DNA from: Balneolaceae bacterium
GTDB lineage: Bacteria > Bacteroidota > Rhodothermia > Balneolales > Balneolaceae
Direction of reading: 5' to 3'
Length of the DNA stretch: 64,000 nucleotides
NCBI GenBank assembly: GCA_017795005.1
Contig: CP051242.1
Location: 3,526,119 to 3,590,118 of the forward strand
Under the pieces are notes generated by a model. The model saw only the letters and a list, made by a program, of their open reading frames with translations, searched no databases and had not been told where the DNA came from. The position numbers and the translations under genes were made by a program. Positions within the stretch are counted from its first letter, which is position 1, and each line of letters begins with the position of its first letter. This document shows positions 13,757 through 26,722 of this stretch, in pieces.

Positions 13757-13779
13757 AAAGAAACAGATTAGCTGTCTTT
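13757..13779. terminator. Weak hairpin between convergent YtxH and foldase genes
   Basis: A short inverted repeat (ACAG/CTGT with flanking AAAG/CTTT, two-base bulge) spans the stop codon of the minus-strand gene and runs into a T-rich stretch on the plus strand. It could end transcription of the YtxH gene, but the stem is short. Confidence 0.3.
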
Positions 13780-15513
13780 GTTTTCTTTTGTGAGATCATA
13801 GATTTTGTTAAACAGAGCAGTATCTATTTCTACTTCTGCCTGATCTCGTATCTCATTCAGTTCATCACTGATATATTTATAGACTTTATATCTTCTTTGA
13901 ATCAGTGAGTTAATACCTGAATTACCGGTTTCTCTTATATCTCTTTTAACCACATTCAGAATTAACCAGCCCTCATCTTCAAAGAACGCAATTACCGGAG
14001 TGTCGATAATCCCTTTTCTCAATAGACTAAATTTTGGATCGGTATCCGGAAGATCCTGAATTGAAAACTCCTTAAAGCTTGGATCCTTTTCTGGTACAAG
14101 TGACCCGCTTTCCATCTCAGCTTTAGCTTTTAAACCTCCATTAACATCAGAAATTGAAAATTGCCAGTATTCTACATCCATTGCCAATTCCCGGTTACCA
14201 ATAAACCTCTGCTTTACTTCTTCCGGAATTTCAACCCTAGTTGTATCCCTGAGTGCTTGTCTTGTAAGATCTCTTTGATAAAGCTCTGATAGAACCTGAT
14301 AACCTTTATATTTAACTTCTTCTTTTACCCTTTCATCTTCCTGATAGCCTTCTTCTGATGCCATCATATAGAACACTTCATTCCGAATCCCCCGACCAAC
14401 AGAAGTTCCTATTCTGGCTTTTGATTCTGCATAAGAAAGATACGGAAGCCATTTCAAGTAATCATCAAATGTAAAATCTACCCGTTCACCTTTATAAATA
14501 AATGATCCCAATATAGTTGCTCCATCCATTGCAGACTGCAGCTGTCTGAAATCTGAATCCTGCCAGTTATCAGACTGTTGTTCGTTTTGATTCGAATTGT
14601 TAACAATGTTGTTTTGACCGAGTTGGTCGATTACTTGTTTGAGCTCGAATATATTATCCTCAGATACTTGAACTAGAAGAGAAGCCATTAATTCATTGAC
14701 ATATTCATTCGCTTCCAGTTCCTGATTCCTGAGTCTTACCTGACTACCTATTCCCGATTTTCTTGTTTGATAATCGCTCTCTGTAAGAATTGTGGGTATT
14801 TCCAAATATTCAACCAATACGATATGAAATCCAAAATTTGATTTAACCGGCTTTGAGAATTCCCCTTGATTAGTTGAAAATGCGGCTTCTGCAAATGCAT
14901 CATCCACTGAATAATATCCGATAGGACCTATATAGCCTGCAAGTGAATCATAAGCAGGCGTTTTAAATAGTTCATTCGCTAAATCAACAAAACTCTCACC
15001 TTTTAATAATCGATTATAGTATTGCTCAATTTCATTTCTATCCCTTGAGTATAAATGTCTTACATAAGCTTTTCTTTTCGATTTAGCATAAGCAAGTCGA
15101 ACTTCCTCATCAGTTGCGGGCTCTAACCGTTCGTCCATTTGGTCAATAAAATAAAAATCAACCATAGCCTTTCTTTGGGCAAAAGTTATTGTCCTTTGAT
15201 AAGTAGGATGATCTAAAAAACCAGAATCAGCGGCTTTCTTTGCAAGCAGGACTTCATCCTGAAACTGGTTTAAAAAAGCATAACGCTCTTTCTTCGTATC
15301 GTTTCTACCGGTTTGAATAAGGTGACGAACATACTTTGCTTCAAAAATTTCAACATTAACCCGTTCACCTTCTATTTCTGTAATAATATCCTGGTCAGTG
15401 CTCGTCTCTTTGGAACAGCCTGAAATAGCTACTAAAAAAAATAAACCTATGATAAATAAGAAAGGCTGCTTATTAAACAAGCAGCCTTTGATAAACTCTA
15501 TGTGAAAAATCAT
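13768..15513 (-). CDS. Periplasmic peptidyl-prolyl isomerase lipoprotein (PpiC/SurA-like)
   Basis: A 581-residue predicted lipoprotein (lipobox AISGC, Cys33 from the longest start). A SurA-N-like helical region is followed by one recognisable parvulin domain (about residues 130-235) with YIGPIGYYSVDDAF and FGFHIVLVEY; the rest is helical and probably a chaperone module. It would fold or escort exported outer-membrane proteins. The ATG at 15513 directly follows the TAA of the PorV-like gene, but a strong hairpin lies inside its first 18 codons. A TTG at 15480 gives a compact signal peptide (FNKQPFLFIIG...) and may be the real start. It is the last gene of the five-gene surface operon, suggesting a dedicated foldase for its products. 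Confidence 0.85.
   Translation of the reverse strand: MIFHIEFIKGCLFNKQPFLFIIGLFFLVAISGCSKETSTDQDIITEIEGERVNVEIFEAKYVRHLIQTGRNDTKKERYAFLNQFQDEVLLAKKAADSGFLDHPTYQRTITFAQRKAMVDFYFIDQMDERLEPATDEEVRLAYAKSKRKAYVRHLYSRDRNEIEQYYNRLLKGESFVDLANELFKTPAYDSLAGYIGPIGYYSVDDAFAEAAFSTNQGEFSKPVKSNFGFHIVLVEYLEIPTILTESDYQTRKSGIGSQVRLRNQELEANEYVNELMASLLVQVSEDNIFELKQVIDQLGQNNIVNNSNQNEQQSDNWQDSDFRQLQSAMDGATILGSFIYKGERVDFTFDDYLKWLPYLSYAESKARIGTSVGRGIRNEVFYMMASEEGYQEDERVKEEVKYKGYQVLSELYQRDLTRQALRDTTRVEIPEEVKQRFIGNRELAMDVEYWQFSISDVNGGLKAKAEMESGSLVPEKDPSFKEFSIQDLPDTDPKFSLLRKGIIDTPVIAFFEDEGWLILNVVKRDIRETGNSGINSLIQRRYKVYKYISDELNEIRDQAEVEIDTALFNKIYDLTKENKDS
15461..15489 (-). terminator. Perfect 11-bp hairpin inside the start region of the foldase gene
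   Basis: Arms 15461-15471 and 15479-15489 are perfectly complementary (AAAGGCTGCTT / AAGCAGCCTTT) with a 7-base loop. Read on the minus strand the stem ends in CCTTT and runs into CTTATTTATC, so it resembles an intrinsic terminator or attenuator placed just after the PorV-like stop codon. It overlaps codons 9-18 of the downstream frame as drawn from the first ATG. Confidence 0.65.
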
Positions 15514-16590
15514 TTAAAAGAATAGCTTTAAATCTACAATAGTGGTTTGTCCTAAATATTCATAAGGAACCTGGGCAAAATCTACTCCAATTGCAAGACC
15601 TGATGCAGTCTTAAGAACAAATCCGGCACCGTAAGTTATATGTGAATCTACTTTATCTCCTAAAAGTAAATCTTTATATCCTCCTCGAACATGAAATTTA
15701 ACAGTATTACTGATGTAGCTGAATTCACTTCCCGAATCTACGTTTAAATCATTATCACTTGTTTGTTGAGCTTCAGAAAGGATCAACCATTTCATGTTAT
15801 CCTGCTCTACAATAGGTAAAGAAACACCGGCCTTGAAAGACAGAGGTAAATCCCATCGATCCATATTGACTCTACCCAATATGTTTCCATTATCCCCTTC
15901 GCTGGTCTCATCAATATCAATAAAGTATTCTGAATTGATACCGTCCATCTGCATCTGTCCCCCGAAGTTACTTATCGAAGCACCAATCGTAAGTCCATTC
16001 AGATACTCTGTTTTGAGGATAAAACCAAGATCTACAGCAAACGTTTCAGCATGCATATCATATATTCGTTGCTGAATAAATTTTGCGGTCCCACCGAAAT
16101 GAAATGATTCAGTAAGGTTTTGGGCATATGTAACTCCAATACTTAAATCGTTAGCTCCATATGTAGCACCAGTACCTTCCTGAAGTTCTACGGTTCTTAT
16201 TTTTTGTCTTCCATAGTCAACATAGTTTATATGAAAACCAAAGTTCTTACCTGATCCCTCACTTAATGGAAGTACCAGTCCTGCACCATACACATCCACG
16301 TCTACAAAAAGTTGATTTATGCTAAAGAAACCAGAACTTCCTGTTTCTCCTCTGTTTTCTATGGAAATTGCTGCCGGATTCCAGAAAAGAGCTTCAGCTC
16401 CAGAAGTGTTAACTGTATTAGCATGTCCAAGGGCCTGACCTTTTGCGCCAACTCCCATTGTTAAAAAAGGAGCGGCAGAAGTTCCAACCCTACTTTGAGC
16501 TAAAATTTGTGACGTGCCGATTACTGCAATCAGAACAACCAACGTACATGCTTTTTTGGAGGTTTTTAAGATGTATTTCATTAGATCCAT
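15514..16590 (-). CDS. PorV/PorQ-family outer-membrane protein (type IX secretion)
   Basis: A 358-residue protein with a signal peptide (ending SQILAQ) and the family's typical opening: VGTSAAPFLTMGVGAKGQALGHA in short blocks, then GAEALFWNPA. The rest is a beta-barrel of alternating strands ending in LKLFF, with the terminal Phe expected for outer-membrane insertion. PorV in characterised Bacteroidota shuttles T9SS substrates from the translocon to the attachment complex, while PorQ-type members have other T9SS-linked roles. This copy lies directly after a T9SS-tailed protein gene, overlapping it by one base (TAATG), so it may serve that substrate. It could be the genome's general PorV or a locus-specific paralogue; a genome-wide count would tell. 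A second ATG three codons in (16581) is also possible. Confidence 0.85.
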   Translation of the reverse strand: MDLMKYILKTSKKACTLVVLIAVIGTSQILAQSRVGTSAAPFLTMGVGAKGQALGHANTVNTSGAEALFWNPAAISIENRGETGSSGFFSINQLFVDVDVYGAGLVLPLSEGSGKNFGFHINYVDYGRQKIRTVELQEGTGATYGANDLSIGVTYAQNLTESFHFGGTAKFIQQRIYDMHAETFAVDLGFILKTEYLNGLTIGASISNFGGQMQMDGINSEYFIDIDETSEGDNGNILGRVNMDRWDLPLSFKAGVSLPIVEQDNMKWLILSEAQQTSDNDLNVDSGSEFSYISNTVKFHVRGGYKDLLLGDKVDSHITYGAGFVLKTASGLAIGVDFAQVPYEYLGQTTIVDLKLFF

Positions 16591-19500
16591 TATTTAATGA
16601 TTGCAAATTTACCGGTGAACTCACCAATTTTTGTAATGCTTCCATCCTCATGTTCAAATCTACCCTCTACATGATAGAAATAAACACCGTAAGCAACGTC
16701 TTCATTATTATCTGATAGTAAATCCCATCCAGCAGAGCCATCATTAAAGGCACCTTCATGCTCAATAGTTTTTATCAATTCTCCTCTAATATTAAAGATT
16801 CGAATAGTACAGAGTCTGGGAAGGTTAAAAAATTCAACCCTTCTTTCTCCTCTACCAATTGACGCTGAACGTCTTTCCCATGAAGCTGTCCCTACATATG
16901 GATCTGGAGCAACATAGATATCTTTTAATTCTGCTGTTGCTAAAGAATCACTTACAGATCCTTTTTGCACACTAAATAGGAACGTGTCTCCACTTCTGAA
17001 TTCTCTTGTGTTAGAGACATAAATGATTTCGCCCGGATCCGGTGCATCATTACCATCAGGGTCTATCGTGATAGTATATCGGTATGTGTATACGTTTGAA
17101 TTTGTCTCCTCTGCGAGAACAAGCTGATCACCAGGAGTTAAAGACTCTGATTCATCCGTATCTAATAAGAAGAGTTCTGCAGGTACCCCTTTAGTAACGT
17201 TTCTTGCAAATACAGGCATATCTGCACGTTCAAAATCAGAACCAAATAAACGAGGAGGTGTATATACCGAATCAGCAGGATCAACAAAAAGGAGCTCAAA
17301 ATCACTATCAGTTTTTCCAAAACCTTCGCTTTCTCCACCTAATAACGGAAGTATGAATAGTTCCCAATCTGTAGATATTCCATCTAAATCATTCGGGTCC
17401 TGAGAGTACATTTCATTTTCAGTTCCTGCATTAGACCGATAACCCGTTCTGGTTAAATCAAGATCTGCTGGTACCGAATTATTCATATCAACTGTAAATC
17501 CATCTATTACTTTTGTAGTAGTTGAAAATGAAGTTGTATCAATCAAAATACTATCTCCGGAAGCTGTCTTCAGAACCAGGGAATAACTTTCCGTGTAACG
17601 GGCATCTCCAAACTCTGGTGGTGCTGCACTATCAGTAAACTGAATTTCATAGATATGTTCATCTATTAACAGATCTTCATTTATGATGTTCACTAACGCA
17701 GATCCTGTTCCTATACCTGTGGTTACAGAACTTAAATCAGAAGATGAACCTCCGGATATAAAACCTGCTGGTGGAGTTGTTGGAACAACCGCTGCAGTAT
17801 TTGGTGAAGTTCCGGAAACCAGACCTTGTGTATTAACAGTTATTCTAAATGGACTTTCCTGAGGGTCTATACCAGGTGTATCACCATCGCCTTCAATACC
17901 TCTATCATATGAATTAATGGCATAGTAATACGTCTTTCCATTAATCACATCATTATCAATATATGAAAATGCTAATCCGGTATTGGAACCTAAATTGTAT
18001 ACGGCATCACCTTCCAAAACCGGAACACTGCCACTTATATCGTTATCCAGATCCCATTGTGCTATTGGTTCATAGAAAACAGGAGTTCCATTAACATCAG
18101 ATATAGTTCGTACATCATTAAAAATATTATTCGTAGAGCGATACAACTTGAAGCCTTCAAAGTCGAATCCCTCATTTACATCCGGAGTCGAAGGATCATC
18201 CCCGATGAAGCGATCATAACTTTGTAGTGCTATATCATCCCATGAAAGTACAACTCTATTATCAGATGCAACCGCTGTCAGGTTGGGTGTTAATGGTGGT
18301 TGAGCAAAGTTATAATCTGCGTTATATATCCTTTGCACTGTTCTTCTGTTTTTAAAGAAGTCTTGCTCATCATCACCAAAAATCCATGCAGTAGAGAAAA
18401 AGTCAGTAGATCTTTCTGTTGATTCTTCATTGGCTAATTCTACAACACCTGATACAAATAAGATAAAAGGTTCTTCATCTGCTAAAGGGCTAACTAATGG
18501 TGGCTGATCCGGATCATCAAAAAGATTTTCTTCTATTTTAGACCACAACCAGGTATCGTCTCTTAAGTTATCGCCCGATTCGTACTCAGGACGAGTTCCT
18601 AAATCAAATCCTGTTAAACCAATCTGATCTGATTCATCAACATCAATTTGGTTATAGTTAGGTTCTCCGTCTGTTGGAATACCATCCCCTTCACCTTCGT
18701 CCGGTCCTGGATATCCAAAATCAAAGTTCCCAAGACCATCACGTCCGACATCATTATTTAAAACTTCTCCTTCGTCCCAAATTCCATTATTATTATCATC
18801 TCCAAAACCTATCCAATCCAGATTTTCATCCGTTGTATACCATAGACCTGCTTCGTAAGCAGGTCGGTCTTCAATTGCCTCCTCATAGAATTCTGCGAAA
18901 TCATCCCGGTTATAATTCGCATCTACATAGGCATCAATTTCTGCCTGGGAACTAAGAACCAGATAATTGTTATCAAATCTAGACTCATCAACAATACCAT
19001 CGGAATCATCATCAATAAGGTTTAAATCATTCGCAGGTGACTCAAGAAATGCGAATCCGGTATAACCTAAACTATAACGCGTTTGTCCATCACGTGTCGG
19101 TTCACCAATTCCATCTCTATCCCAACCATACACAACGTCAAGTAATGGATCGAAGTTTGCATTATCATCTGCTTCTTCAAATCCCAGACCATAATCCACA
19201 ATTTGTGCAAAATATAAACTGTCTTGTTTGTAATCTCCTTTATTGGTGATTCTGTAGATTAGAAAGGCCGTATCTTCAGCAAGTACATTTGCCCACTGAA
19301 AAATCCGTACCTGCATTTGCATGGCTAACCCACCAATAGTTGAATCTACATCACTTGGATGATACACCCCAAATTCACTATGTGGACCCGCTTCTTCAAT
19401 ACCAAAAGCATATTCTAAATCGGAAAAGTCATCCATCACATAAAAGGATTCAAGATCAGCACTTGCAAAACGACCATCTCTACCATTCCATGTACCTGGC

Positions 19501-20072
19501 CAACCCGGATCTTGTTCTCCCAGACGATCCGGCCAAAATTCAGGCCAGGAAGTATTATCGTTAGATAAGGCTGGTACCGGTTCTGCTTGTAATAGATCAT
19601 TTAATCTATCCCGGTTATTAAACCCTGGTAATGGAAGCCAACCATAAATATCTCCTGTTCTTGGGCTTTGTCTCAAGCCAGCTTGACGATAATTAATACT
19701 TAACGGATTTAAAATAGTGTCTGTAGTAGCCGTAAAAAATGGGGCTACTTCAGCAGAAGTTCTGTTACCTAATACTTTTCCAACAACAAGAACCCCAACC
19801 CCATCAATATGCCTTCCACCAATATCACGAGGCCAAACCCCCCAAGGAAAATCATCCCATCTGGAAAGCTCACCATGATTTCGAAAGTTTGTTTGAATAA
19901 GGTTACCGTCTAAAATTCCTCTGGCAATAGAGTTTTCTACTCCACGATATATTACTCCATTTGCAGAATCAGGAATTGATTGAGCGTTTACACTGCTTAC
20001 CAGCAGAATTGAAGCTAGTAATGATAATGTTTTGGTTAAATTCCGCATGTAAATATTCTTTGTACTAAACAT
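16590..20072 (-). CDS. Large secreted surface protein with T9SS-type C-terminal sorting region
   Basis: A 1160-residue protein with a signal peptide ending SSVNAQ. The better-shaped signal starts at Met9 (ATG at 20048), so the start could be there. No enzyme domain is recognised. Between about residues 350 and 480 are several Asp/Asn-rich loops (DDDSDGIVDE, DDNNNGIWDEGE, DGEPNYNQIDVDESD) resembling calcium-binding dockerin or thrombospondin-3 loops. One or more fibronectin-III-like segments follow (about 600-760, beginning LTAVASDNRVVLSWDD). The last about 95 residues match a sorting/FlgD-like beta domain (IRIFNIRGELIKTIEHEG ... GVYFYHVEGRF ... GKFAIIK). It is probably exported by the T9SS and held at the surface. 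It sits between the TonB receptor (5-bp gap) and the PorV-like gene (1-bp overlap), so it is probably a partner of the receptor. Confidence 0.8.
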   Translation of the reverse strand: MFSTKNIYMRNLTKTLSLLASILLVSSVNAQSIPDSANGVIYRGVENSIARGILDGNLIQTNFRNHGELSRWDDFPWGVWPRDIGGRHIDGVGVLVVGKVLGNRTSAEVAPFFTATTDTILNPLSINYRQAGLRQSPRTGDIYGWLPLPGFNNRDRLNDLLQAEPVPALSNDNTSWPEFWPDRLGEQDPGWPGTWNGRDGRFASADLESFYVMDDFSDLEYAFGIEEAGPHSEFGVYHPSDVDSTIGGLAMQMQVRIFQWANVLAEDTAFLIYRITNKGDYKQDSLYFAQIVDYGLGFEEADDNANFDPLLDVVYGWDRDGIGEPTRDGQTRYSLGYTGFAFLESPANDLNLIDDDSDGIVDESRFDNNYLVLSSQAEIDAYVDANYNRDDFAEFYEEAIEDRPAYEAGLWYTTDENLDWIGFGDDNNNGIWDEGEVLNNDVGRDGLGNFDFGYPGPDEGEGDGIPTDGEPNYNQIDVDESDQIGLTGFDLGTRPEYESGDNLRDDTWLWSKIEENLFDDPDQPPLVSPLADEEPFILFVSGVVELANEESTERSTDFFSTAWIFGDDEQDFFKNRRTVQRIYNADYNFAQPPLTPNLTAVASDNRVVLSWDDIALQSYDRFIGDDPSTPDVNEGFDFEGFKLYRSTNNIFNDVRTISDVNGTPVFYEPIAQWDLDNDISGSVPVLEGDAVYNLGSNTGLAFSYIDNDVINGKTYYYAINSYDRGIEGDGDTPGIDPQESPFRITVNTQGLVSGTSPNTAAVVPTTPPAGFISGGSSSDLSSVTTGIGTGSALVNIINEDLLIDEHIYEIQFTDSAAPPEFGDARYTESYSLVLKTASGDSILIDTTSFSTTTKVIDGFTVDMNNSVPADLDLTRTGYRSNAGTENEMYSQDPNDLDGISTDWELFILPLLGGESEGFGKTDSDFELLFVDPADSVYTPPRLFGSDFERADMPVFARNVTKGVPAELFLLDTDESESLTPGDQLVLAEETNSNVYTYRYTITIDPDGNDAPDPGEIIYVSNTREFRSGDTFLFSVQKGSVSDSLATAELKDIYVAPDPYVGTASWERRSASIGRGERRVEFFNLPRLCTIRIFNIRGELIKTIEHEGAFNDGSAGWDLLSDNNEDVAYGVYFYHVEGRFEHEDGSITKIGEFTGKFAIIK

Positions 20073-20077
20073 CTTAA

Positions 20078-22873
20078 TTAAAATTTAAAACTTAGTCCGA
20101 CTCTTACCGTTCTTGGAGCACCAACACTTTGTGGATTCAAAAACCATTCAGTAAGAGTATTCAATCCTCCTGGTTGAGCATTCTGATCTATTCTTCTATT
20201 TAATTCACCTGATTCAGTTGCTAAACCGGTATCATTGAAAACGCCGAATTCAGGTGTAGAATCGAAAACATTATTTACTTGTAAGAAGATCTCCACATCC
20301 TGTTCAATAACCGGAGGCTTATAGAATACACGAGCATTAGAATTAAACCAAGGTGGAGTATCTTCATTATTAGGAATAGTGGACTGTCTGAAGTTCCTTA
20401 ATGAAGTATATGGACTACCAGACTGCAACGTATTTATAAATGAAAGTGTAAGACCATATGGACTATTCCAGGTAATGGTATTGTTTAAAACATTTCTTCT
20501 ATCCCAATCTAAACGATTCAACTTAATCACAGGATCTTGCCCCTCTAACGCTCTCTGTAACGTTTCTTGAGGATTAGATGCAGATCCATTAGCGAACTGA
20601 TAGGTATAATCTAGTGTCCAGCTTACCGGACCGCCTCCTCGTTGATATAATGATAGGGTAAACCCTTTTACTGTCCCATAATCAAGGTTTACTAGTTGAG
20701 CTGTATATTGACCATTAAAATTTCTAAAAAATTCTAGTCCGGATAAATTTCTTATGTCCTTAGAATAGAGTGTTAAGTCCATTCCTAAGGTTTCCGTTAA
20801 ACCTTGCTGTAATCCTACTTCAAAAGAGAGAGTCCGCTCTGGTTTCAAAGAAGCATTCCCATAAGTAATACTGGCATTTGCCGGATTGGCTTCAAATTCA
20901 TTATTTGTATACAGAAGATTTAACTGAGGCGTTTGAAAAAATAAACCTGCTGAAAATCTCATAACTCCGGTTTCTGAGATAGGAAAAGCTATCCCTAATC
21001 TTGGGCTTAATTGGAAAGTATCTTCAGCTTTGGTTCGATTAGAAATTGAATCCCCTTCAGCCTCAGTACTAACATCCGCTATTCTATCAAACTGACCTTG
21101 AGAAATATCTCTTACTACAACAAAATCAGGTTCAAAATAATCAGCGCGTAATCCAGCATTTACAATCAAATTATCAAACTCAAGTTTTACCTGAGAGTAA
21201 GCTGCAGCTTCATAGGGATTGACTTCCAGTGAAGAGTTTGCATAGATATTATTGGATCTTACCGCAGGCTGATTACCGGTCTTCGTAATTCCATAACCCT
21301 CGTTATCCAAACTGTGGAATCTTGCTGAAATTCCGGATTTAAAAAGTACGGTATTGTTTATTTGAGAAGTGAAGTCTGTTACAATAGTATGAGTTTTAGT
21401 AACACTGATTCCCGAATTCAAATAATTCCCTCCGACATTGAAGGCGAATTGTCCTTCCTGAGCTTCAAAATTTGGATTAACATATCGTTGATCTAATTCC
21501 CCTGTTGCAGTAGCGTCACTGTATAAATAGCTTTCCCCACTATCATATAAGTAACTATAAGAGAAGTTAGCAAATGAGTTTTGACCGATAGAATATCTTA
21601 AACCAAGTATATGGTTCTGTGATAAATTGTAGTAATTATTTATTCCATCTGGTACATATTTATAACTATGATCATAATTACTACCATCCTGTTGTTGAAG
21701 GAATAAATTATAATCTAATTTAAATCTGCTGTTAATTTCGTATACAAAAGAGGTATTCAAAGAATAACGATCGTAATAATTAAGTCCTTGTAATTCGCCA
21801 CTACCAGTCGATTGAAGCAACCAAGTTTCAGAACCTCCCGACCCAGTTAAGCCTGCTACAATAGAGTTGCCTTCAGTAAAAGAAAGTTGTTGATCGCTTG
21901 GCTTGAATAAGTCTCTACCTATTAAGTTACCAGGCTCAGAAACATATCTTAGAGTTGCCTGAATACTAAATTTATCTTTGATGATTGGACCACCTACTGA
22001 AAACTGAACATCCCTACTTCTAAAAGTTGAGTATGCTTCGGTATATGAAATTTTTTCATTCACAAAATCATCGATTGTGAGCCTCTCACCAAGCTCTGTA
22101 GGTCCACTGGTTCTACGCACCATTTCTAATTCTCTATTACTATATACTGTACCTACGTAACCTAGAAAATTTGCGGTCCACTCATTTGAAACACCTTTTG
22201 TTACAATATTTACAACACCACTAAGTGCCTGTCCATATTCTGCATTAAAAACCCCGCTAATAACTTCAAGACTGGAAACCATGTTTTGTTCAACTTCGAA
22301 TGCAGCATTGTTATTAAACGCATTATTTATTGGAACACCATTTACAAGATATGCAACCTCACCAATTCTTCCCCCTCTAAAGTGACCATCTACAACACCC
22401 GCTTGTTGATTTACTGCTTCATTTAAACTAACAATTGGTAAGTCTTCTAATTGTTCTGAACTTACATATGCAGTAGTAGTTGTTCTATCTTTTTCAACAA
22501 TTGGTCGTTCGGCAGTAACTACAATTTCCTGCCCTTCTATAACTTCTTCTCTTAATGTGACATCTATTTCAGTAGTTCGGTCAAGACGAACTACTACTTC
22601 TTCAACTCTTGTAGTAGCGAACCCAATATATCTAAAAACCAATACAAAGGTACCTGCCTCAAGATTTATTATGGAATACTCCCCATTCAAATCAGTTAAT
22701 ACACCTCGTGTTGTACCTTCAATTAGAACCTGGACACCAATTAATGGCTCCCCTGATTCATCTAGAACTGTACCACTTACCTTACCTTTAGATTGGGCAA
22801 ATACAGTTGAACTGGTGATCAGAATTAGTAAAAGTGAGGGGAGTGCAAACTTCGATAAGAATAGTTTGATCAT
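20078..22873 (-). CDS. TonB-dependent outer-membrane receptor
   Basis: A 931-residue receptor. A signal peptide (ending STVFAQ) is followed by a carboxypeptidase-regulatory-like domain (about 30-110, GTVLDESGEPLIGVQVLIEGTTRG), a TonB-box-like segment (EIVVTAER), a plug domain (about 130-225, with NAEYGQALSGVVNIVTKG in parts) and a 22-strand-type barrel to a terminal Phe (VGLSFKF). It would import a large or scarce nutrient across the outer membrane using TonB energy. The SusC signature and a SusD partner are both absent. It follows the secreted sugar-binding gene after 81 bp containing a strong hairpin, and precedes the large surface protein. Its substrate is inferred to be a glycan, from the neighbouring carbohydrate-binding protein and LacI regulator. 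Confidence 0.93.
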   Translation of the reverse strand: MIKLFLSKFALPSLLLILITSSTVFAQSKGKVSGTVLDESGEPLIGVQVLIEGTTRGVLTDLNGEYSIINLEAGTFVLVFRYIGFATTRVEEVVVRLDRTTEIDVTLREEVIEGQEIVVTAERPIVEKDRTTTTAYVSSEQLEDLPIVSLNEAVNQQAGVVDGHFRGGRIGEVAYLVNGVPINNAFNNNAAFEVEQNMVSSLEVISGVFNAEYGQALSGVVNIVTKGVSNEWTANFLGYVGTVYSNRELEMVRRTSGPTELGERLTIDDFVNEKISYTEAYSTFRSRDVQFSVGGPIIKDKFSIQATLRYVSEPGNLIGRDLFKPSDQQLSFTEGNSIVAGLTGSGGSETWLLQSTGSGELQGLNYYDRYSLNTSFVYEINSRFKLDYNLFLQQQDGSNYDHSYKYVPDGINNYYNLSQNHILGLRYSIGQNSFANFSYSYLYDSGESYLYSDATATGELDQRYVNPNFEAQEGQFAFNVGGNYLNSGISVTKTHTIVTDFTSQINNTVLFKSGISARFHSLDNEGYGITKTGNQPAVRSNNIYANSSLEVNPYEAAAYSQVKLEFDNLIVNAGLRADYFEPDFVVVRDISQGQFDRIADVSTEAEGDSISNRTKAEDTFQLSPRLGIAFPISETGVMRFSAGLFFQTPQLNLLYTNNEFEANPANASITYGNASLKPERTLSFEVGLQQGLTETLGMDLTLYSKDIRNLSGLEFFRNFNGQYTAQLVNLDYGTVKGFTLSLYQRGGGPVSWTLDYTYQFANGSASNPQETLQRALEGQDPVIKLNRLDWDRRNVLNNTITWNSPYGLTLSFINTLQSGSPYTSLRNFRQSTIPNNEDTPPWFNSNARVFYKPPVIEQDVEIFLQVNNVFDSTPEFGVFNDTGLATESGELNRRIDQNAQPGGLNTLTEWFLNPQSVGAPRTVRVGLSFKF

Positions 22874-22892
22874 GGCTAAAAATATTTAAAAA

Positions 22893-22920
22893 TCGGACAC
22901 AGTCTTACGACTGTGCCCGA
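22893..22920 (-). terminator. Strong hairpin with GUAA loop and U-tract between binder and receptor genes
   Basis: On the minus strand a 12-bp stem (one G-U pair) with loop GUAA is followed by UUUUU, and a second U run lies closer to the receptor start. This is the form of an intrinsic terminator. It lies between the secreted binder gene and the receptor gene, so it probably works as a partial terminator or 3' stabiliser, making the binder far more abundant than the receptor. Confidence 0.75.
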
Positions 22921-22954
22921 CATAGTATTTATATAAGTAGTCAGTGTATGAAGC

Positions 22955-25357
22955 TTATTTGATAAGCATCATTTTTCTGGACTGAGTAAATGATTCTGTA
23001 CTAATACGATATACGTACATTCCAGAAGCAAGACTTGAAGCATCAAACTTCTGAGAATGTGCTCCTGCGCTCAACTTCTCGTTTTGAAGAAGTGTAGCCA
23101 CTTTCTGACCAAGCAGATTGTATACTTCTAAAGTAACATTGCTTGTCGTTCCAAGTCGGAATGAAATATTCGTAGTAGGGTTGAATGGATTCGGATAGTT
23201 TTGATTTAACTCAAATGTGAATGGCTTAGAAATTCCATCATCTTCATTCGAGTTTGGAACTGCATCAGCTCCAACCAAAGCTACTGTTTCCCATCTGGCA
23301 GGAGTATTCCACCAATCATCCTGTCCACCTTTCGTGGACCAACCCACCTGAGTGTCTCTGGTGGTAGCATCTGCATCATTGATCGTCCAGTTAAATGGAA
23401 CTGTTGTTACTTCATCGCCAGTTGGGAAATCAAAATCTACTGATTCAGTATTAACTACTGAGAAGGCATTTGTGTTTGCTATAGAAAGCAATCTGTACCC
23501 TCCAGTAACTGATTCTCCAATAGTAGCTGAGTTGTTAATATCGCCGTTGAATGCACCACCATTGGCGTGCATGTAAGCTGCGGTATCGACTCTGAGACCA
23601 GCACGCATCTGGTAATCAGGCTCTTCACCTTGTTCGAAATTCTCGTGATCAGATCCATTGATAAATGAAGCAGGAGAATAAGCACCAATACCAATTTCCC
23701 AACTATCATAATTCCACCCACCTTCACCAGCTGTAGTTCTAGGTGTTGGAACTAATATATCGTCGGTGATTTCTGCATAGATTACCATATAAGCAGATGC
23801 AGCATTGAAACCAACCCACATTTTTCCAGAGATGTCAGCGTCATTATCGCCACCAGATCCGTTTTCAATAATTTTTCTACCGCTTGCTTCGCTAATTTCG
23901 AATGGTTGATATCCATCTGGAAATAATGCTGCAAGAGCTGACGCTTCCGGAACTACACCATCATCAATAGCATCAAAGACTGTATCTAATTGATCGTCTG
24001 AAAGCTCAACAATGTAGTTAGCTGCTGCTGTCATACCTGTTTCAATCGAACTTACAGTGATGTCACTTTCAGTACCATTTGCTGTTTTAGCCACAAGCCC
24101 GTAATGCGCTGTAAAGTTAGTAGCTAGTGATGGGTGAGGTGCAGTTGTAGAATGCTGGAATGTTAACCCTGCATCAACTGAGAATGTACCTACAGAAGAT
24201 GCACCATCAGTTGAGGTAAACGCAGAATCCGCAAAGTATACTTCATATTCAGAAACACCAGATTGAGCACTAGCTGTAAGTGTAACAACACCGTCCATGG
24301 TAGTTAAACCAAAAGTAGGAGCATCCGGAGCAACCTCACGCACTCTTCTAACAATTACATTATCAAACCAAACAGGGGAATCATCTGCAGAAACCTCAAA
24401 ACCTATCTTCATTGATGGAAAGTTTCGTGTTACATCAATATTTAAAGAGTAGGTCTGCATAGAATCATCAAGTACTACTTGTGGAGCAAAATTCGTCCAA
24501 TCTGCACCACCACCAATATCAGAGCCATTATTACCAAAAAATACTTGAATTGTTTTTTCAGCCACATTTGTTCTCGCTTCAAACTCCATTAGGTATGGAC
24601 CAGCATAAATAGAATCAAGCTGAACAGTATCTAACACTTGATACCATTGAATATCATAACTATTAACTAAGTTAGCCATGTCATCAATTTTTAACTCTCC
24701 ATTTTCGGCAGTGAACGTAGCAGAAGCACCACTTACAACCTGATCCCAAGCAGTACTTAGAGAATCTTCACCAATAACCAATTCTCCATCATACAGAAGG
24801 TTATCATCTACTCTTCTTAATGTAATGTTATCAAAGAATACATCTTGAGCATCATGATTCACTTCAAAAGCAAATTTCATATTTGACCAAGTTTGAGTGA
24901 TGTTTGTTTTAAGAGTAAATGTAGTATCTGTAGTAAATGACCAGTTCTCACTCCAATATCTCGCCCAATCTCCTCCGTTTTCCCCTAAGAAAACGTGAAA
25001 GGTCTTGGTTGAATCAGTTGTTGTCCGGGCGTCAAAAGTAAGCTCCCACTCTCCACCTCTTGAAAGCTCAGCGATCTGAGCAGCACTTAATTCTTGTACC
25101 AACTGTACATCCCAGGAGTTACCATCTCCTGTTAGACCTGTTATGGCAGCTTCATTATTAGTGATTTCTACAGCTCCCGGGCCGGAATCAATAATACTAC
25201 TCCAATTAGGTGCAAGGGTACCGACAGTGAAATCGCCATCAATAATGACATTATCGCTGTACAAAGTATTCTGAGCTGAAACTGTTGTTCCAATACTCAT
25301 CATTAATAGCATCACAAATGAAAGTGAAGCCACATTTCTGATTGTAGCTTTAATCAT
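22955..25357 (-). CDS. Secreted multi-module carbohydrate-binding protein with T9SS type A tail
   Basis: An 800-residue protein with a signal peptide ending TVSAQ. Two tandem jelly-roll-like modules, about residues 34-186 and 187-342, each end in a matching block (FFDNITLRRV and WFDNVIVRRV) and look like CBM4/9-type repeats. A fibronectin-like segment follows (about 345-440). Residues about 460-705 resemble a family-9-type carbohydrate-binding (DOMON-like) domain, with AYMVIYAEITDD, WEIGIGAYS and TQVGWSTKGG. The last about 85 residues are a canonical T9SS type A sorting domain (NQNYPNPFNPTT, YNLLGQKV, ASGMYVYRI). No catalytic domain is seen, so it is probably a surface glycan binder rather than a hydrolase. 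It is the first gene of the operon, divergent from the LacI regulator. The exact glycan is unknown. Confidence 0.82.
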   Translation of the reverse strand: MIKATIRNVASLSFVMLLMMSIGTTVSAQNTLYSDNVIIDGDFTVGTLAPNWSSIIDSGPGAVEITNNEAAITGLTGDGNSWDVQLVQELSAAQIAELSRGGEWELTFDARTTTDSTKTFHVFLGENGGDWARYWSENWSFTTDTTFTLKTNITQTWSNMKFAFEVNHDAQDVFFDNITLRRVDDNLLYDGELVIGEDSLSTAWDQVVSGASATFTAENGELKIDDMANLVNSYDIQWYQVLDTVQLDSIYAGPYLMEFEARTNVAEKTIQVFFGNNGSDIGGGADWTNFAPQVVLDDSMQTYSLNIDVTRNFPSMKIGFEVSADDSPVWFDNVIVRRVREVAPDAPTFGLTTMDGVVTLTASAQSGVSEYEVYFADSAFTSTDGASSVGTFSVDAGLTFQHSTTAPHPSLATNFTAHYGLVAKTANGTESDITVSSIETGMTAAANYIVELSDDQLDTVFDAIDDGVVPEASALAALFPDGYQPFEISEASGRKIIENGSGGDNDADISGKMWVGFNAASAYMVIYAEITDDILVPTPRTTAGEGGWNYDSWEIGIGAYSPASFINGSDHENFEQGEEPDYQMRAGLRVDTAAYMHANGGAFNGDINNSATIGESVTGGYRLLSIANTNAFSVVNTESVDFDFPTGDEVTTVPFNWTINDADATTRDTQVGWSTKGGQDDWWNTPARWETVALVGADAVPNSNEDDGISKPFTFELNQNYPNPFNPTTNISFRLGTTSNVTLEVYNLLGQKVATLLQNEKLSAGAHSQKFDASSLASGMYVYRISTESFTQSRKMMLIK

Positions 25358-25553
25358 GTTCTATCCTAAATTTGTTAATTTTTATTTAATGGTCTTTTAA
25401 CATTTTGGACATGTTATACAACAATTCCAATCTGAAATACCATCTACCTATTTTATAGAAACCCTTCCAAAGAAACAAAAAAAAAAGACATTTTTTTCAA
25501 TGTCGTGAGAAATTTTCCCACAAACACACTAAAACAGCTCTATGGTACCAATA

Positions 25554-25567
25554 AAAAAGCGCTCTCA
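25554..25567. promoter_or_regulatory. Putative LacI-family operator, site 1
   Basis: The sequence is centred on the palindrome AGCGCT (25558-25563) with A-rich left and CTCA right flanks. LacI/GalR proteins typically bind operators built around a central CG step such as GCGC or AACGTT. It is one of two such sites in the spacer, 49 bp centre to centre from the other. Confidence 0.6.
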
Positions 25568-25602
25568 TGAAATTTTTTGGGAAATCCTGCAAATAAATAC
25601 CC

Positions 25603-25616
25603 TGTAAGCGCTTCTT
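25603..25616. promoter_or_regulatory. Putative LacI-family operator, site 2
   Basis: TGTAAGCGCTTCTT contains the 8-bp perfect palindrome AAGCGCTT (25606-25613), close to the LacI/CcpA-type consensus with a central CG. It lies 75 bp before the regulator's ATG, so it could mediate autoregulation as well as control of the divergent operon. Confidence 0.65.
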
Positions 25617-25690
25617 TTTATGAAAAAATTATTTATTTTTATAAGAAAATTTCTCACCATTGTGAGTAATTCTCTACCTTGTTCAACAAA

Positions 25691-26698
25691 ATGATCAAAG
25701 CAACTTTACACGATATTGCTGAAAAAACCGGGCTTTCCGTTTCAACGGTATCACGTATACTTCGCGGAGAATCAAAAACCAGCGCCGAAAATGTTAAACT
25801 GACAATTAAGGTTGCCCAAGAGATTAATTACCCAATTAATACCAGGGTGTTAAACGGTAAGTATAGCTATAAGAAAAAAACTCAAATAGCACTCATTACC
25901 TCTTTTTATCCGGATGAATTTTACTCTAACTTTTACCATGGATTTAATGAAGCAGGTATTGAGTTTAATACTAATCTTTCACTTCATTCTATAAATCCAG
26001 AGGAATTCGACCTAGCTGAGTTTATTACCGAGCTAAGTTATAATTCAATAGATGCTGCTATCTTATTTTTACCTACATTTCAGGAGATTGATTACGAAAG
26101 TTTGCTTGAAAAAATCCCACAGGATTTTGCTATAATTTCTGCAGCTCCTCTTTTCAATCCTGTATTAGACACCATTACTTTTGATTCTTATAGAGGAGGA
26201 TATATAGTTGCCAAACATTTTTATGATCGGAAATATTTTGATGTCGGTATCATAACAGGACCTAACAATAAAAATGAAGCATTACTTAGAAAAAATGGTT
26301 TTCTGGATTTTATTAATCAAAAAAAAGACCTGAATCTTGTGTGGCAATTTGAAGGCGACTATAGTCTGGATTCCGGAAAAATGGCCTTTGAAGCATACTC
26401 AAAATTGAAGGACAAACCCCGTGCGATATTTACAAGTAATGACTATATGTGTCTCGGATTTCTGGAACAAGCTTCAAAACACGGGGTAAAAGTCCCCGAT
26501 GAAATTGCTGTTGTAGGTTATGATGACCTTCCCATCTGTAACTATATCTATCCAGCAGTCACATCTGTTCATACCAATTATAAAATGCTTGCCCAGAAGA
26601 CTTTCAGTGTATTAATCGAAAAAATGGAATCTTCCGATTCACATAGTGGTATTTTAAGTGTTATACCTGTGTCGCTATCTGTGAGAAATTCCAGCTGA
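25691..26698 (+). CDS. LacI/GalR-family transcriptional regulator
   Basis: About 335 residues. The N-terminal helix-turn-helix is canonical (TLHDIAEKTGLSVSTVSRIL), the hinge region keeps the Leu and Gly-Lys of the family (RVLNGKYS), and the C-terminal part is a periplasmic-binding-like sugar-sensing fold (IALITSFYPDEF ... FTSNDYMCLGFLEQA ... DEIAVVGYDDLPICNYIYPAVTSV). I chose the ATG at 25691; a TTG at 25679 would add four residues. It should bind the AGCGCT palindromes just upstream and release them, or bind them, when a sugar ligand is present. It is divergent from the binder/receptor operon, which makes that operon the obvious target. Confidence 0.93.
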   Translation: MIKATLHDIAEKTGLSVSTVSRILRGESKTSAENVKLTIKVAQEINYPINTRVLNGKYSYKKKTQIALITSFYPDEFYSNFYHGFNEAGIEFNTNLSLHSINPEEFDLAEFITELSYNSIDAAILFLPTFQEIDYESLLEKIPQDFAIISAAPLFNPVLDTITFDSYRGGYIVAKHFYDRKYFDVGIITGPNNKNEALLRKNGFLDFINQKKDLNLVWQFEGDYSLDSGKMAFEAYSKLKDKPRAIFTSNDYMCLGFLEQASKHGVKVPDEIAVVGYDDLPICNYIYPAVTSVHTNYKMLAQKTFSVLIEKMESSDSHSGILSVIPVSLSVRNSS

Positions 26699-26703
26699 TC
26701 AAC

Positions 26704-26722
26704 ATTAGTAAGAATAACTAAT
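26704..26722. terminator. AT-rich inverted repeat between convergent genes
   Basis: ATTAGT and ACTAAT form a 6-bp stem with a 7-base loop just after the LacI-family stop codon, overlapping the stop of the convergent gene. The stem is weak and AT-only apart from one G-C pair, so terminator function is only possible. Confidence 0.3.

Follow-up and report, generated by a model that had tools for sequence, protein, structure and literature searches.

A conserved triplet of TonB receptor, secreted F1160 protein and PorV-family barrel with a probable role in glycan uptake, in a LacI-linked locus of a Balneolaceae bacterium

The SusC/SusD pair is the familiar glycan importer of gut Bacteroides, with the Sus system of B. 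thetaiotaomicron and other PULs as examples, and provides the first comparison for the locus analyzed here. Two further comparisons come from type IX secretion (T9SS). PorU and PorZ keep their C-terminal domains uncleaved and are held by PorV and PorQ, respectively (excerpts of PMC5562754 and PMC11285876). The extra hairpin that is common to PorZ and PorU is, according to the latter excerpts, not enough to block cleavage, as RgpB given this hairpin is still cleaved, and a Tannerella C-terminal domain that the authors contrast with non-cleaved domains is nevertheless structurally closest to those (PMC11285876). That PorV-type barrels shield C-terminal domains from cleavage has been posed as a hypothesis in a review (excerpt of PMC10202324), and gene pairs of a cargo with its private shuttle or anchor are also described for type B domains and PorP/SprF, such as SprB-SprF and PG1035-PorP (excerpts of PMC9143113 and PMC12618676). 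Closest in gene order is the R. marinus alginate locus, with tonB, a T9SS protein and a PorV/PorQ protein in succession and without mention of SusD in the main text (PMC9530828). This locus corresponds to one of the relative loci in our set (L229); its middle protein (hypA in PMC9530828) is of a shorter kind (~730-770 aa), the resemblance of which to the protein described below is largely confined to the C-terminal domain. An excerpt of PMC6987092 gave the R. marinus xylan locus (Rmar_1067-1073, L226) as a lead for a further example, which was rejected: the locus encodes a TonB receptor and a type A protein of 671 aa and gave no F1160 or PorV match.

The locus of interest lies in a 64,000-nucleotide stretch of a Balneolaceae genome, which we refer to as the window. 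The original prediction placed a LacI regulator divergent from an operon of five genes here, and all six genes, their order and their divergence are borne out, with matching coordinates and lengths:

25679..26698, + strand: LacI-family regulator, 339 aa, divergent from the operon (PF00356, 4.2e-10; Peripla_BP_3, 2e-23)
22955..25357, - strand: 800-aa surface glycan-binding protein with a type A T9SS tail (Por_Secre_tail, 3.3e-14; AF2 model)
20078..22873, - strand: TonB-dependent receptor, 931 aa (CarboxypepD-reg N-terminal extension, plug and barrel by Pfam)
16590..20072, - strand: F1160, large T9SS-type secreted partner, 1160 aa
15514..16590, - strand: PorV/PorQ-family outer-membrane barrel, 358 aa (NF033709), the proposed private shuttle or anchor of F1160
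13768..15513, - strand: parvulin-type peptidyl-prolyl isomerase, 581 aa (PPIC rotamase; Rotamase, 8.4e-11)

The five operon genes are spaced by 0-81 bases or overlap by one base. As in SusC/SusD PULs, a CarboxypepD-reg TonB receptor adjoins a large, presumably surface-exposed partner, and glycosidases, binding proteins and a regulator are found in the loci of many relatives. Unlike in those systems, the partner F1160 is no SusD lipoprotein but carries a Sec-type leader, a predicted beta-supersandwich and a C-terminal domain of T9SS type, a PorV-family barrel is present in addition, and the receptor falls under the SusC/RagA cut-off (TIGR04056, 80.4 bits vs 368.25). None of the six locus proteins matches a SusD or glycosidase model (Pfam/NCBIfam, E ≤ 0.1). 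The noted lack of SusD holds for the locus; genome-wide, a search with PF07980, the one Pfam SusD family used, returned a single match away from the locus (C1:3628078, 25.9 bits, cut-off 23.1). The noted absence of a hydrolase applies to the window copy, with no adjoining glycosidase or inner-membrane sugar transporter, but not as a general trait, given that sister loci carry alpha-amylase, GH3, GH130, GH16 and GH94 genes.

Comparison across genomes confirms the locus as a member of a large, widespread and apparently unnamed family, the core of which consists of adjacent genes for a TonB receptor, F1160 (~1100 residues) and a PorV/PorQ-family barrel; in the open-licence literature searched, no account of the three genes as one system was found. 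Counting all ORFs, with identical C-termini taken once, type A-tailed genes from the same stretches as controls, loci selected by F1160 similarity and not by PorV, and "F1160" denoting genes with a PorZ-like tail only, PorV is the next gene after F1160 in 110/114 cases (type A-tailed genes, 1/166), the TonB receptor is the gene before it in 107/110 (1/130), and both neighbors are present for 100 of the 105 F1160 genes that have space for a gene on either side, compared to 0/124 type A-tailed genes. In the four of 114 cases where PorV is not next, it lies elsewhere in the locus, and the sole type A gene followed by PorV is itself F1160-like, being a second such gene in locus L186, with a tail that scores as type A. 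These figures supersede a first next-gene count (F1160 108/117, F700 3/6, type A 1/160), which was affected by shadow ORFs in GC-rich genomes. Of 41 loci (the window and 40 others selected by F1160 similarity, those cut by a contig end being scored as misses), 21 have all five genes in this order. The recurrence of the order, and of the far more widespread core triplet, is more than chance, and the conservation of the neighbors expected for a distinct system is therefore found. Among the best 80 loci, the lineages named are Rhodothermales, Balneolales, Gracilimonas, Ignavibacteriales, Melioribacteraceae, Caldithrix, Neomarinimicrobiota, KSB1 and WOR-3. Of 296 genomes sampled across the phylum, 109 have an F1160 match at E ≤ 1e-30, 55 of these 109 belonging to the class of the window. 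The spread is patchy, with no match at the thresholds used in 37/116 relatives and 187/296 phylum genomes.

The three core genes co-travel across these many deep lineages repeatedly with carbohydrate genes. The genome's second F1160 copy lies in a starch-type locus, together with three genes that have alpha-amylase domains, an MFS gene and a gene for a T9SS protein bearing CBM48, and the loci of relatives often contain CBM proteins, LacI, ABC importers and glycosidases. Downstream of F1160 in L121-L187 we counted 34 ABC permeases, 17 extracellular solute-binding proteins, 13 GH3, 12 GH130, 4 GH16 and 3 GH94 genes, in a tally covering 115 of 143 unlabelled same-strand genes up to 8.5 kb after F1160. 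We consider the module and the glycan role of the locus to be well supported, and the triplet is very probably a conserved unit for glycan uptake. The suggestion of a glycan-import module in its own right, with a PorV-family barrel tied to the locus, has accordingly gained support from the conserved triplet and from the 12 porV-family matches in the genome.

The first gene of the operon had been called CBM-rich, for which the predicted folds of two modules are the main support (Z 15 and Z 19), CBM_4_9 being sub-threshold by Pfam:

24809..25246, - strand: CBM4-like module of the 800-aa protein, aa 38-183 (1gui, Z 15.2, rmsd 2.4, 137 aligned, 21% identity; AF2 mean pLDDT per block about 48-77)
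23264..24025, - strand: CBM9 module of the 800-aa protein, aa 445-698 (7nwn, Z 19.3, rmsd 2.6, 185 aligned; 1i82, Z 19.0, 21% identity)

A PDB sequence search with the 800-aa protein gave nothing useful. The CBM4 and CBM9 folds suggest beta-glucan, xylan or reducing-end binding. The type A tail of this protein is above both cut-offs (TIGR04183, 52.7 bits, cut-off 23; PF18962, 53.4 bits, cut-off 27), and two peptidase models also touch the protein, via the T9SS tail only.

The regulator has both the HTH and the sugar-binding domain above cut-off (PF00356, PF13377), and LacI is found in 20 of the 80 named loci only. Two putative operator half-sites lie between it and the operon:

25557..25563, no strand assigned: putative operator half-site 1, AAGCGCT, in the LacI/operon intergenic region
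25606..25612, no strand assigned: putative operator half-site 2, AAGCGCT, 49 bases from half-site 1

The exact twin AAGCGCT pattern has two occurrences in the genome, both at F1160-PorV cassettes, the second being just upstream of the TonB receptor of the genome's second cassette. AGCGCT-like sites number 17 in 14 intergenic regions vs 1.95 expected, for a motif chosen from the same intergenic regions later used for the count. When the window was scanned with a 12-base operator, sites were no more frequent than expected (33 vs 28.95), and only the twin pattern is informative.

F1160 itself begins with a Sec-type leader ending in ...SVNAQS, without a lipobox cysteine (by eye), and divides into three parts:

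18273..19946, - strand: N-domain of F1160, predicted beta-supersandwich, aa about 43-600 (some structural matches extend to aa 750)
16908..18272, - strand: middle region of F1160, aa 601-1055, beta-sandwich/Fn3-like modules (Fn3-rich Foldseek matches and also a weak one, 0.12)
16593..16907, - strand: C-terminal domain of F1160, PorZ/PorU-like

The N-domain model aligns with 9ju0 (Z 19.1, rmsd 3.2, 268 aligned), with the CGS entries 8rf9, 8rf0 and 8rfe (Z 18.1-19.1) and with disaccharide phosphorylases (Z 16.1-17.7), and no SusD chain is among the structural matches listed for F1160. We take the disaccharide phosphorylase structures to be GH94, 8bou carrying GH94 in its title. In GH94 enzymes, the supersandwich is the N-terminal domain, separate from the catalytic domain. 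Because the N-domain is predicted as a beta-supersandwich, the proposal that F1160 replaces SusD can be meaningful in a functional sense only.

F1160 had also been described as T9SS-tailed, and a T9SS-type C-terminal domain is indeed present, but it is not a recognizable type A tail: full-length F1160 has no match to TIGR04183 or PF18962 at E ≤ 0.1 and a sub-threshold CHU_C match (0.05). The type B model TIGR04131 does not match the window protein and matches 1/30 members weakly (0.0041). When isolated, the C-terminal domains match the type A model weakly in 25/30 cases at E ≤ 0.1 (best 7.1e-5), and they are homologous to type A tails (hhalign 96%). The PorZ model matches 30/30 of them (E ≤ 0.1, best 8.6e-9) vs 1/12 control type A tails, whereas the PorU model, with 28/30 vs 12/12, does not separate the two tail types. 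By sequence, the PDB returns PorU, PorZ and one weak unrelated chain for this domain, and the F1160 model aligns with PorZ 5m11 over 92 residues between model residues 604 and 1160 (Z 10.8, rmsd 2.4, 25% identity). The domain, which also has the extra hairpin of PorZ and PorU, is therefore closer to PorZ/PorU than to type A tails.

The adjoining barrel belongs to the PorV/PorQ family (NF033709, 145.3 bits, cut-off 90) and lies below the PorV, PorQ and PorV2 equivalog cut-offs (62.0, 79.1 and 37.1 vs 250, 220 and 325 bits); its subfamily profile matches PorV 6h3i at 6e-23. As had been suspected, it is not the sole porV of the genome, being one of 12 matches to the family model, 9 of them above cut-off, with a porU-porV pair at another locus and PorQ at a third. 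In a tree, a branch with 96/87 support sets 34 F1160-linked PorVs, drawn from many lineages, apart from the F700-linked PorVs and from the core PorV, PorQ and PorV2 of the genome, which shows that the locus barrel is a member of a subfamily specific to the F1160 partner. Across 93 loci, a mirror-tree analysis did not specifically link PorV to the C-terminal domain of F1160 (partial r -0.04), which is too conserved to decide the matter; the strongest partial link was between PorV and the TonB receptor (0.515). The pairing resembles PorU-PorV and PorZ-PorQ in joining a secreted protein with a PorZ/PorU-like C-terminal domain to a PorV/PorQ-family barrel (excerpt of PMC5562754), but here the cargo would be a glycan-uptake partner and not a sortase or LPS-delivery protein, and the barrel is in its own clade. 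It shares with the type B/PorP/SprF pairs a cargo encoded next to its shuttle or anchor, but differs in the PorV family of the barrel, in the C-terminal domain and in the addition of a TonB receptor. It is somewhat likely that the barrel is the private shuttle or anchor of F1160.

The reading that we favor, and consider reasonably likely, is that of a LacI-controlled outer-membrane system for glycan capture and import, in which F1160 is exported, held by the barrel and acts as the glycan-binding partner of the receptor. F1160 would cross the outer membrane via the general T9SS translocon (SprA is present, 1477 bits), after which its C-terminal domain, of the kind that stays uncleaved in PorZ and PorU, would be taken up and retained by its own PorV-family barrel, which would thereby stand in for the lipid anchor of SusD. 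At the surface, the beta-supersandwich may bind glycan together with the neighboring TonB receptor, or cap it; a role as the cap or lid of the receptor has, in our view, slightly less than an even chance. The CBM4/CBM9 protein would collect polymer at the surface, the receptor would import oligosaccharides, the lipoprotein-like parvulin may aid folding of F1160 or of the barrels in the periplasm, and LacI would repress the divergent promoters via the twin AAGCGCT sites until sugar is present. More tentatively still, this could be a third glycan-import architecture besides SusC/SusD and lone TonB receptors, with two barrels and one secreted beta-supersandwich protein held permanently by an uncleaved PorZ-like domain.

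The anchoring step could also be read as delivery only, with the locus PorV as a co-regulated extra shuttle, PorU cleaving the domain, and F1160 attached to LPS or released in the manner of ordinary type A cargo, to act as a general SusE/SusF-like glycan binder of the surface and not as a partner fixed to the receptor. Such a reading would fit the homology of the domain to type A tails and its matches to their model, the presence of PorU (1058 bits), the lack of co-variation seen between domain and PorV, and the L186 gene whose type A-scoring tail precedes PorV. However, the genome already has a core PorV, the type A genes of the same loci (other than that L186 gene) have no PorV next door, the PorZ model matches every F1160 domain compared, and the genome's one F1160 N-domain with a type A tail (L028) stands alone, with no PorV or receptor labelled in the 20 kb covered, and we judge cleavage and release to be unlikely.

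We find it more improbable again that F1160 is an enzyme, that is, a divergent glycoside hydrolase, phosphorylase or epimerase of supersandwich fold that trims glycans before import, even though carbohydrate enzymes (disaccharide phosphorylases, GH116, GH149 and aldose epimerases) head its fold matches and many of its acidic residues are invariant. Neither F1160 nor its own-genome paralogues match a catalytic-family Pfam model, F1160 has no Glyco_hydro_94 match at E ≤ 0.1, the GH94 supersandwich is the non-catalytic domain, and the same protein stands beside alpha-amylase, GH130 and GH3/GH16/GH94 sets, which better suits a constant part of transport. Import of something other than a polysaccharide (a glycoconjugate, nucleoside or metal chelate), with the nearby sugar genes being incidental, is the least probable of these readings: TonB receptors take many substrates and the window copy lacks a neighboring glycosidase or sugar transporter, but the operon opens with CBM4/CBM9 folds, its operator pattern is common to the starch-type cassette, and ABC, MFS, GH3 and GH130 genes recur in many sister loci.

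If the favored reading of a barrel-held, glycan-binding F1160 is right, it would explain glycan uptake without a SusC/SusD pair in the locus across many Bacteroidota lineages and neighboring phyla, give a function to many hypothetical proteins annotated as "T9SS sorting domain" and "PorV/PorQ family", and extend the type IX system beyond secretion to the building of importers. The F1160 profile and triplet would also offer an annotation marker for glycan loci missed by SusC/SusD searches, and the F1160-PorV module a way to test directly whether C-terminal domains are protected from cleavage by PorV-type barrels. The more tentative third architecture, if real, would be a main machine of glycan uptake in Rhodothermota/Balneolota, Ignavibacteria, Calditrichota, Marinimicrobia and their neighbors, and PorV-family barrels would be a general class of protein anchors.

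The last gene of the operon, for the parvulin, has a lipobox-like start (by eye). The idea of a locus-linked foldase stands in part: the foldase is part of the close orthologues, and 27/80 named loci have a parvulin-like gene beside PorV, but it is absent from that position in the rest. At the other end of the locus, a GDSL/SGNH-like gene (26718-28511) follows past LacI, outside the operon.

The window genome consists of one 3.75-Mb contig. Family searches bear out the original prediction of a LacI regulator divergent from a five-gene operon, with all six genes found as described:

Genes of the window locus (the family searches agree)
LacI regulator gene, divergent from the five-gene operon
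Operon gene 1, T9SS-tailed protein, 800 aa
Operon gene 2, TonB receptor, 931 aa
Operon gene 3, F1160 (a large T9SS-type secreted protein), 1160 aa
Operon gene 4, PorV/PorQ-family barrel, 358 aa
Operon gene 5, parvulin, 581 aa

A further gene on the minus strand (window 26718-28511), which encodes a GDSL/SGNH-like protein with TPR repeats, is convergent with the LacI gene and lies outside the conserved module.

The conservation of neighbors anticipated for this locus is found: the full five-gene order returns in 21 of 41 loci (window counted), and its core, the triplet of receptor, F1160 and PorV, for 100 of 105 F1160 genes, compared to 0/124 for genes with an ordinary (type A) T9SS tail. Taking identical C-termini once, and counting as F1160 only genes with a PorZ-like tail, PorV directly follows F1160 in 110/114 cases (type A genes on the same stretches, 1/166), and a TonB receptor directly precedes it in 107/110 (type A genes, 1/130). 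In the four misses PorV is still within the locus: in L157 and L169 it is one gene further downstream, in L186 it comes behind a second F1160-like gene, and in L187 it lies upstream of F1160. The last two loci, from WOR-3 and KSB1, with their second F1160-like gene or shuffled order, are useful for judging the separability of the parts. LacI is present in 30 of the 41 loci (window counted) and in 20 of 80 named loci.

Of 116 related genomes, 79 carry an F1160 relative, and in a sample of 296 genomes taken from across the phylum 109 have a match at E ≤ 1e-30 (55 in the window's class, 54 outside); the module is thus patchy, as many genomes, including members of the window's own family, have no match. 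A contig scan matched at least 586 stretches, at least 550 of which encode an F1160 relative, with the best 80 titled Rhodothermales, Balneolales, Ignavibacteriales, Melioribacteraceae, Caldithrix, Neomarinimicrobiota, KSB1 and WOR-3. We note that the second contig of one related genome (L231, 125,133 bases), probably a plasmid, carries an F1160 triplet, suggesting that the module is mobile.

The C-terminal domain (CTD) of F1160 resembles those of PorU and PorZ. Searched against solved structures at E ≤ 10, its sequence matched only PorU (0.013), PorZ (0.23) and a weak unrelated chain (0.88); type A tails instead matched gingipain CTDs, FlgD and further T9SS tails, and reached PorU at 0.67. 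A PorZ model recognized 30/30 F1160-kind CTDs vs 1/12 type A tails, while a PorU model did not discriminate (28/30 vs 12/12). The CTD segment W-DL-x-TKDG-x-DVAYGVY aligns with segments of PorU and PorZ at which, in the published account, a hairpin is found that is absent from the compared cleaved P. gingivalis domains and does not by itself block cleavage (PMC11285876). At the level of structure, Foldseek matches of the F1160 model include both PorZ and PorU, and in the fold search PorZ aligned over 92 residues within model residues 604-1160 (Z 10.8, rmsd 2.4, 25% identity).

The window genome also encodes a 672-aa protein (L028:9947-11965; C1:3693946-3695964) that combines an F1160 N-domain (47-50% identity) with an ordinary type A tail, and in the surrounding 20 kb neither PorV nor a receptor is labeled beside it, a contrast that fits the barrel following its partner protein. 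Two further genomes have short frames (two in G002, one in G014), each about 690 aa long, that match this part of F1160. As a counter-case, the second F1160-like gene of L186 has a tail scoring as type A, yet PorV is next to it.

The original prediction, which took the barrel for a locus-linked shuttle, is upheld in that the window gene is not the sole porV-like gene: the PorV family model gave 12 matches in this genome, 9 above cut-off. One copy adjoins PorU (287 bits vs the PorV cut-off of 250), and another scores 297 bits vs the PorQ cut-off of 220. The window barrel exceeds the broad family cut-off only, and is therefore a paralogue distinct from the general T9SS PorV. In a tree of 48 PorV-family proteins, in which several long branches are unsure and core PorV, PorQ and PorV2 are each represented by the window genome's copy only, all 34 F1160-linked barrels fall on one side of a branch supported at 96/87 (94% of 200 bootstrap trees), and these three copies fall outside it. 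A shorter cargo family, F700 (about 700-770 aa, with a CTD of the F1160 kind), occurs in six loci (L029, L030, L227, L228, L229, L230), with PorV directly after it in five, which form receptor-cargo-PorV triplets; of the six barrels linked to F700, five group with one another (95/91), apart from the F1160-linked ones. Since the F1160-linked barrels group together, the barrel tracks its partner protein rather than the organism. Other PorV-family genes of the window genome adjoin proteins with divergent T9SS-like CTDs (L035, a 545-aa protein with two barrels; L036, a 2382-aa protein with one), hinting that a cargo with a private barrel is a wider pattern.

In the T9SS literature, type A cargo is shuttled by PorV, which also tethers PorU, and PorZ is tethered by PorQ (PMC5562754, PMC12618676); PorU and PorZ retain their CTDs (PMC11285876, PMC10202324), and for type B proteins private PorP/SprF shuttles double as anchors (PMC9143113, PMC12618676). 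We propose that F1160 would be exported by the T9SS, as expected given its kind of tail and a genome that encodes SprA and PorU, and that the PorV-family barrel would capture it and hold it lastingly, an anchoring role supported by this analogy and by the barrel clade. A co-variation test over 93 loci gave no support for a specific link between the F1160 CTD and PorV. F1160 might then work jointly with the TonB receptor as a glycan-binding cap or partner, the cap being our guess, with the CBM protein gathering polymer and LacI sensing the product.

The F1160 AlphaFold model (54 sequences, mean pLDDT 83.5, pTM 0.76) predicts a beta-supersandwich at residues about 43-600, with closest resemblance to dextran dextrinase (Z 19.1, rmsd 3.2, 268 aligned), CGS entries (Z 18.1-19.1) and disaccharide phosphorylases (Z 16.1-17.7), as well as to GH116 and GH149 enzymes and aldose epimerases (Z about 13); a Pfam search of F1160 matched no catalytic domain. 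Several acidic loops with a DxDxDGxxDE-type motif, almost unchanged among relatives, lie at residues about 354-363, 415-446 and 464-487 (gene at window 16590-20072) and look by eye like putative calcium-binding loops.

Functionally the module comes near to SusC/SusD, but the window locus has no SusD (the single PF07980 match in the whole genome, the only SusD model searched, lies elsewhere), its receptor scores below the SusC cut-off, and F1160 is not a lipoprotein. The module is a combination of protein families already known; the parts of the open-licence literature searched yielded no description of the triplet as a named system.

For the window copy, the glycan evidence is the predicted CBM folds of the first operon gene, whose model (mean pLDDT 70, first modules weaker) matches CBM9 (Z 19) and CBM4 (Z 15); the ABC, MFS and glycosidase neighbors of sister loci are absent beside it. 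Among 115 genes scanned of 143 (unlabeled, same-strand, 240-1100 aa, ≤8.5 kb after F1160, loci L121-L187), we found 34 ABC permeases, 17 solute-binding proteins, 13 GH3, 12 GH130, 4 GH16, 3 GH94, 6 MFS and 4 ROK. Elsewhere, L092 combines LacI, a CBM_4_9 protein, the triplet, a binding protein and GH130, and L096 combines LacI, a CBM9 protein, the triplet and a PF10091 glycoamylase. In view of the triplets that turned up in Melioribacteraceae, the Melioribacter roseus starch genes Mros0759-0761, called SusC, SusD and SusE in the published description (PMC3534657), may be a receptor, F1160 and another secreted protein. The window genome itself holds a second F1160 cassette:

Second F1160 cassette (C1:1766902-1778489)
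TonB receptor, 895 aa
F1160 homologue, 1225 aa
PorV, 343 aa
T9SS protein with CBM48/CBM20-type modules, 1034 aa
LacI

Three alpha-amylase-domain genes and an MFS transporter follow, and the whole resembles a locus for starch or maltodextrin, with the triplet occupying the place expected for SusC and SusD. Across the LacI gaps of the window and 13 relatives (14 loci), AGCGCT-like sites number two or more in five, one in six and none in three, 17 in total, where 500 letter shuffles gave an expectation of 1.95 and a maximum of 8. This motif was picked from the same gaps in which it was counted, so the independent evidence is a whole-genome scan for AAGCGCT-N38-44-AAGCGCT, which occurs exactly twice, in the window LacI/operon gap and directly before the second cassette's TonB receptor; the reversed control occurs nowhere in the genome.

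The literature already contains at least one F700-type locus, with genes named only hypA and hypB. The R. marinus alginate locus is listed as four successive genes, namely tonB (2805 nt), one for a T9SS type A protein (2181 nt), one of the PorV/PorQ family (1056 nt) and a hypothetical one (1398 nt), with SusD unmentioned in the main text (PMC9530828). L229, likely from an R. marinus genome, corresponds to this locus, with a TonB receptor, a 767-aa protein, a 1056-nt PorV gene and a 1398-nt ORF in the published order; its middle protein is of the F700 kind, sharing mainly the CTD with F1160. The R. marinus xylan locus, first suspected of carrying the triplet, was rejected, as the triplet is absent there.
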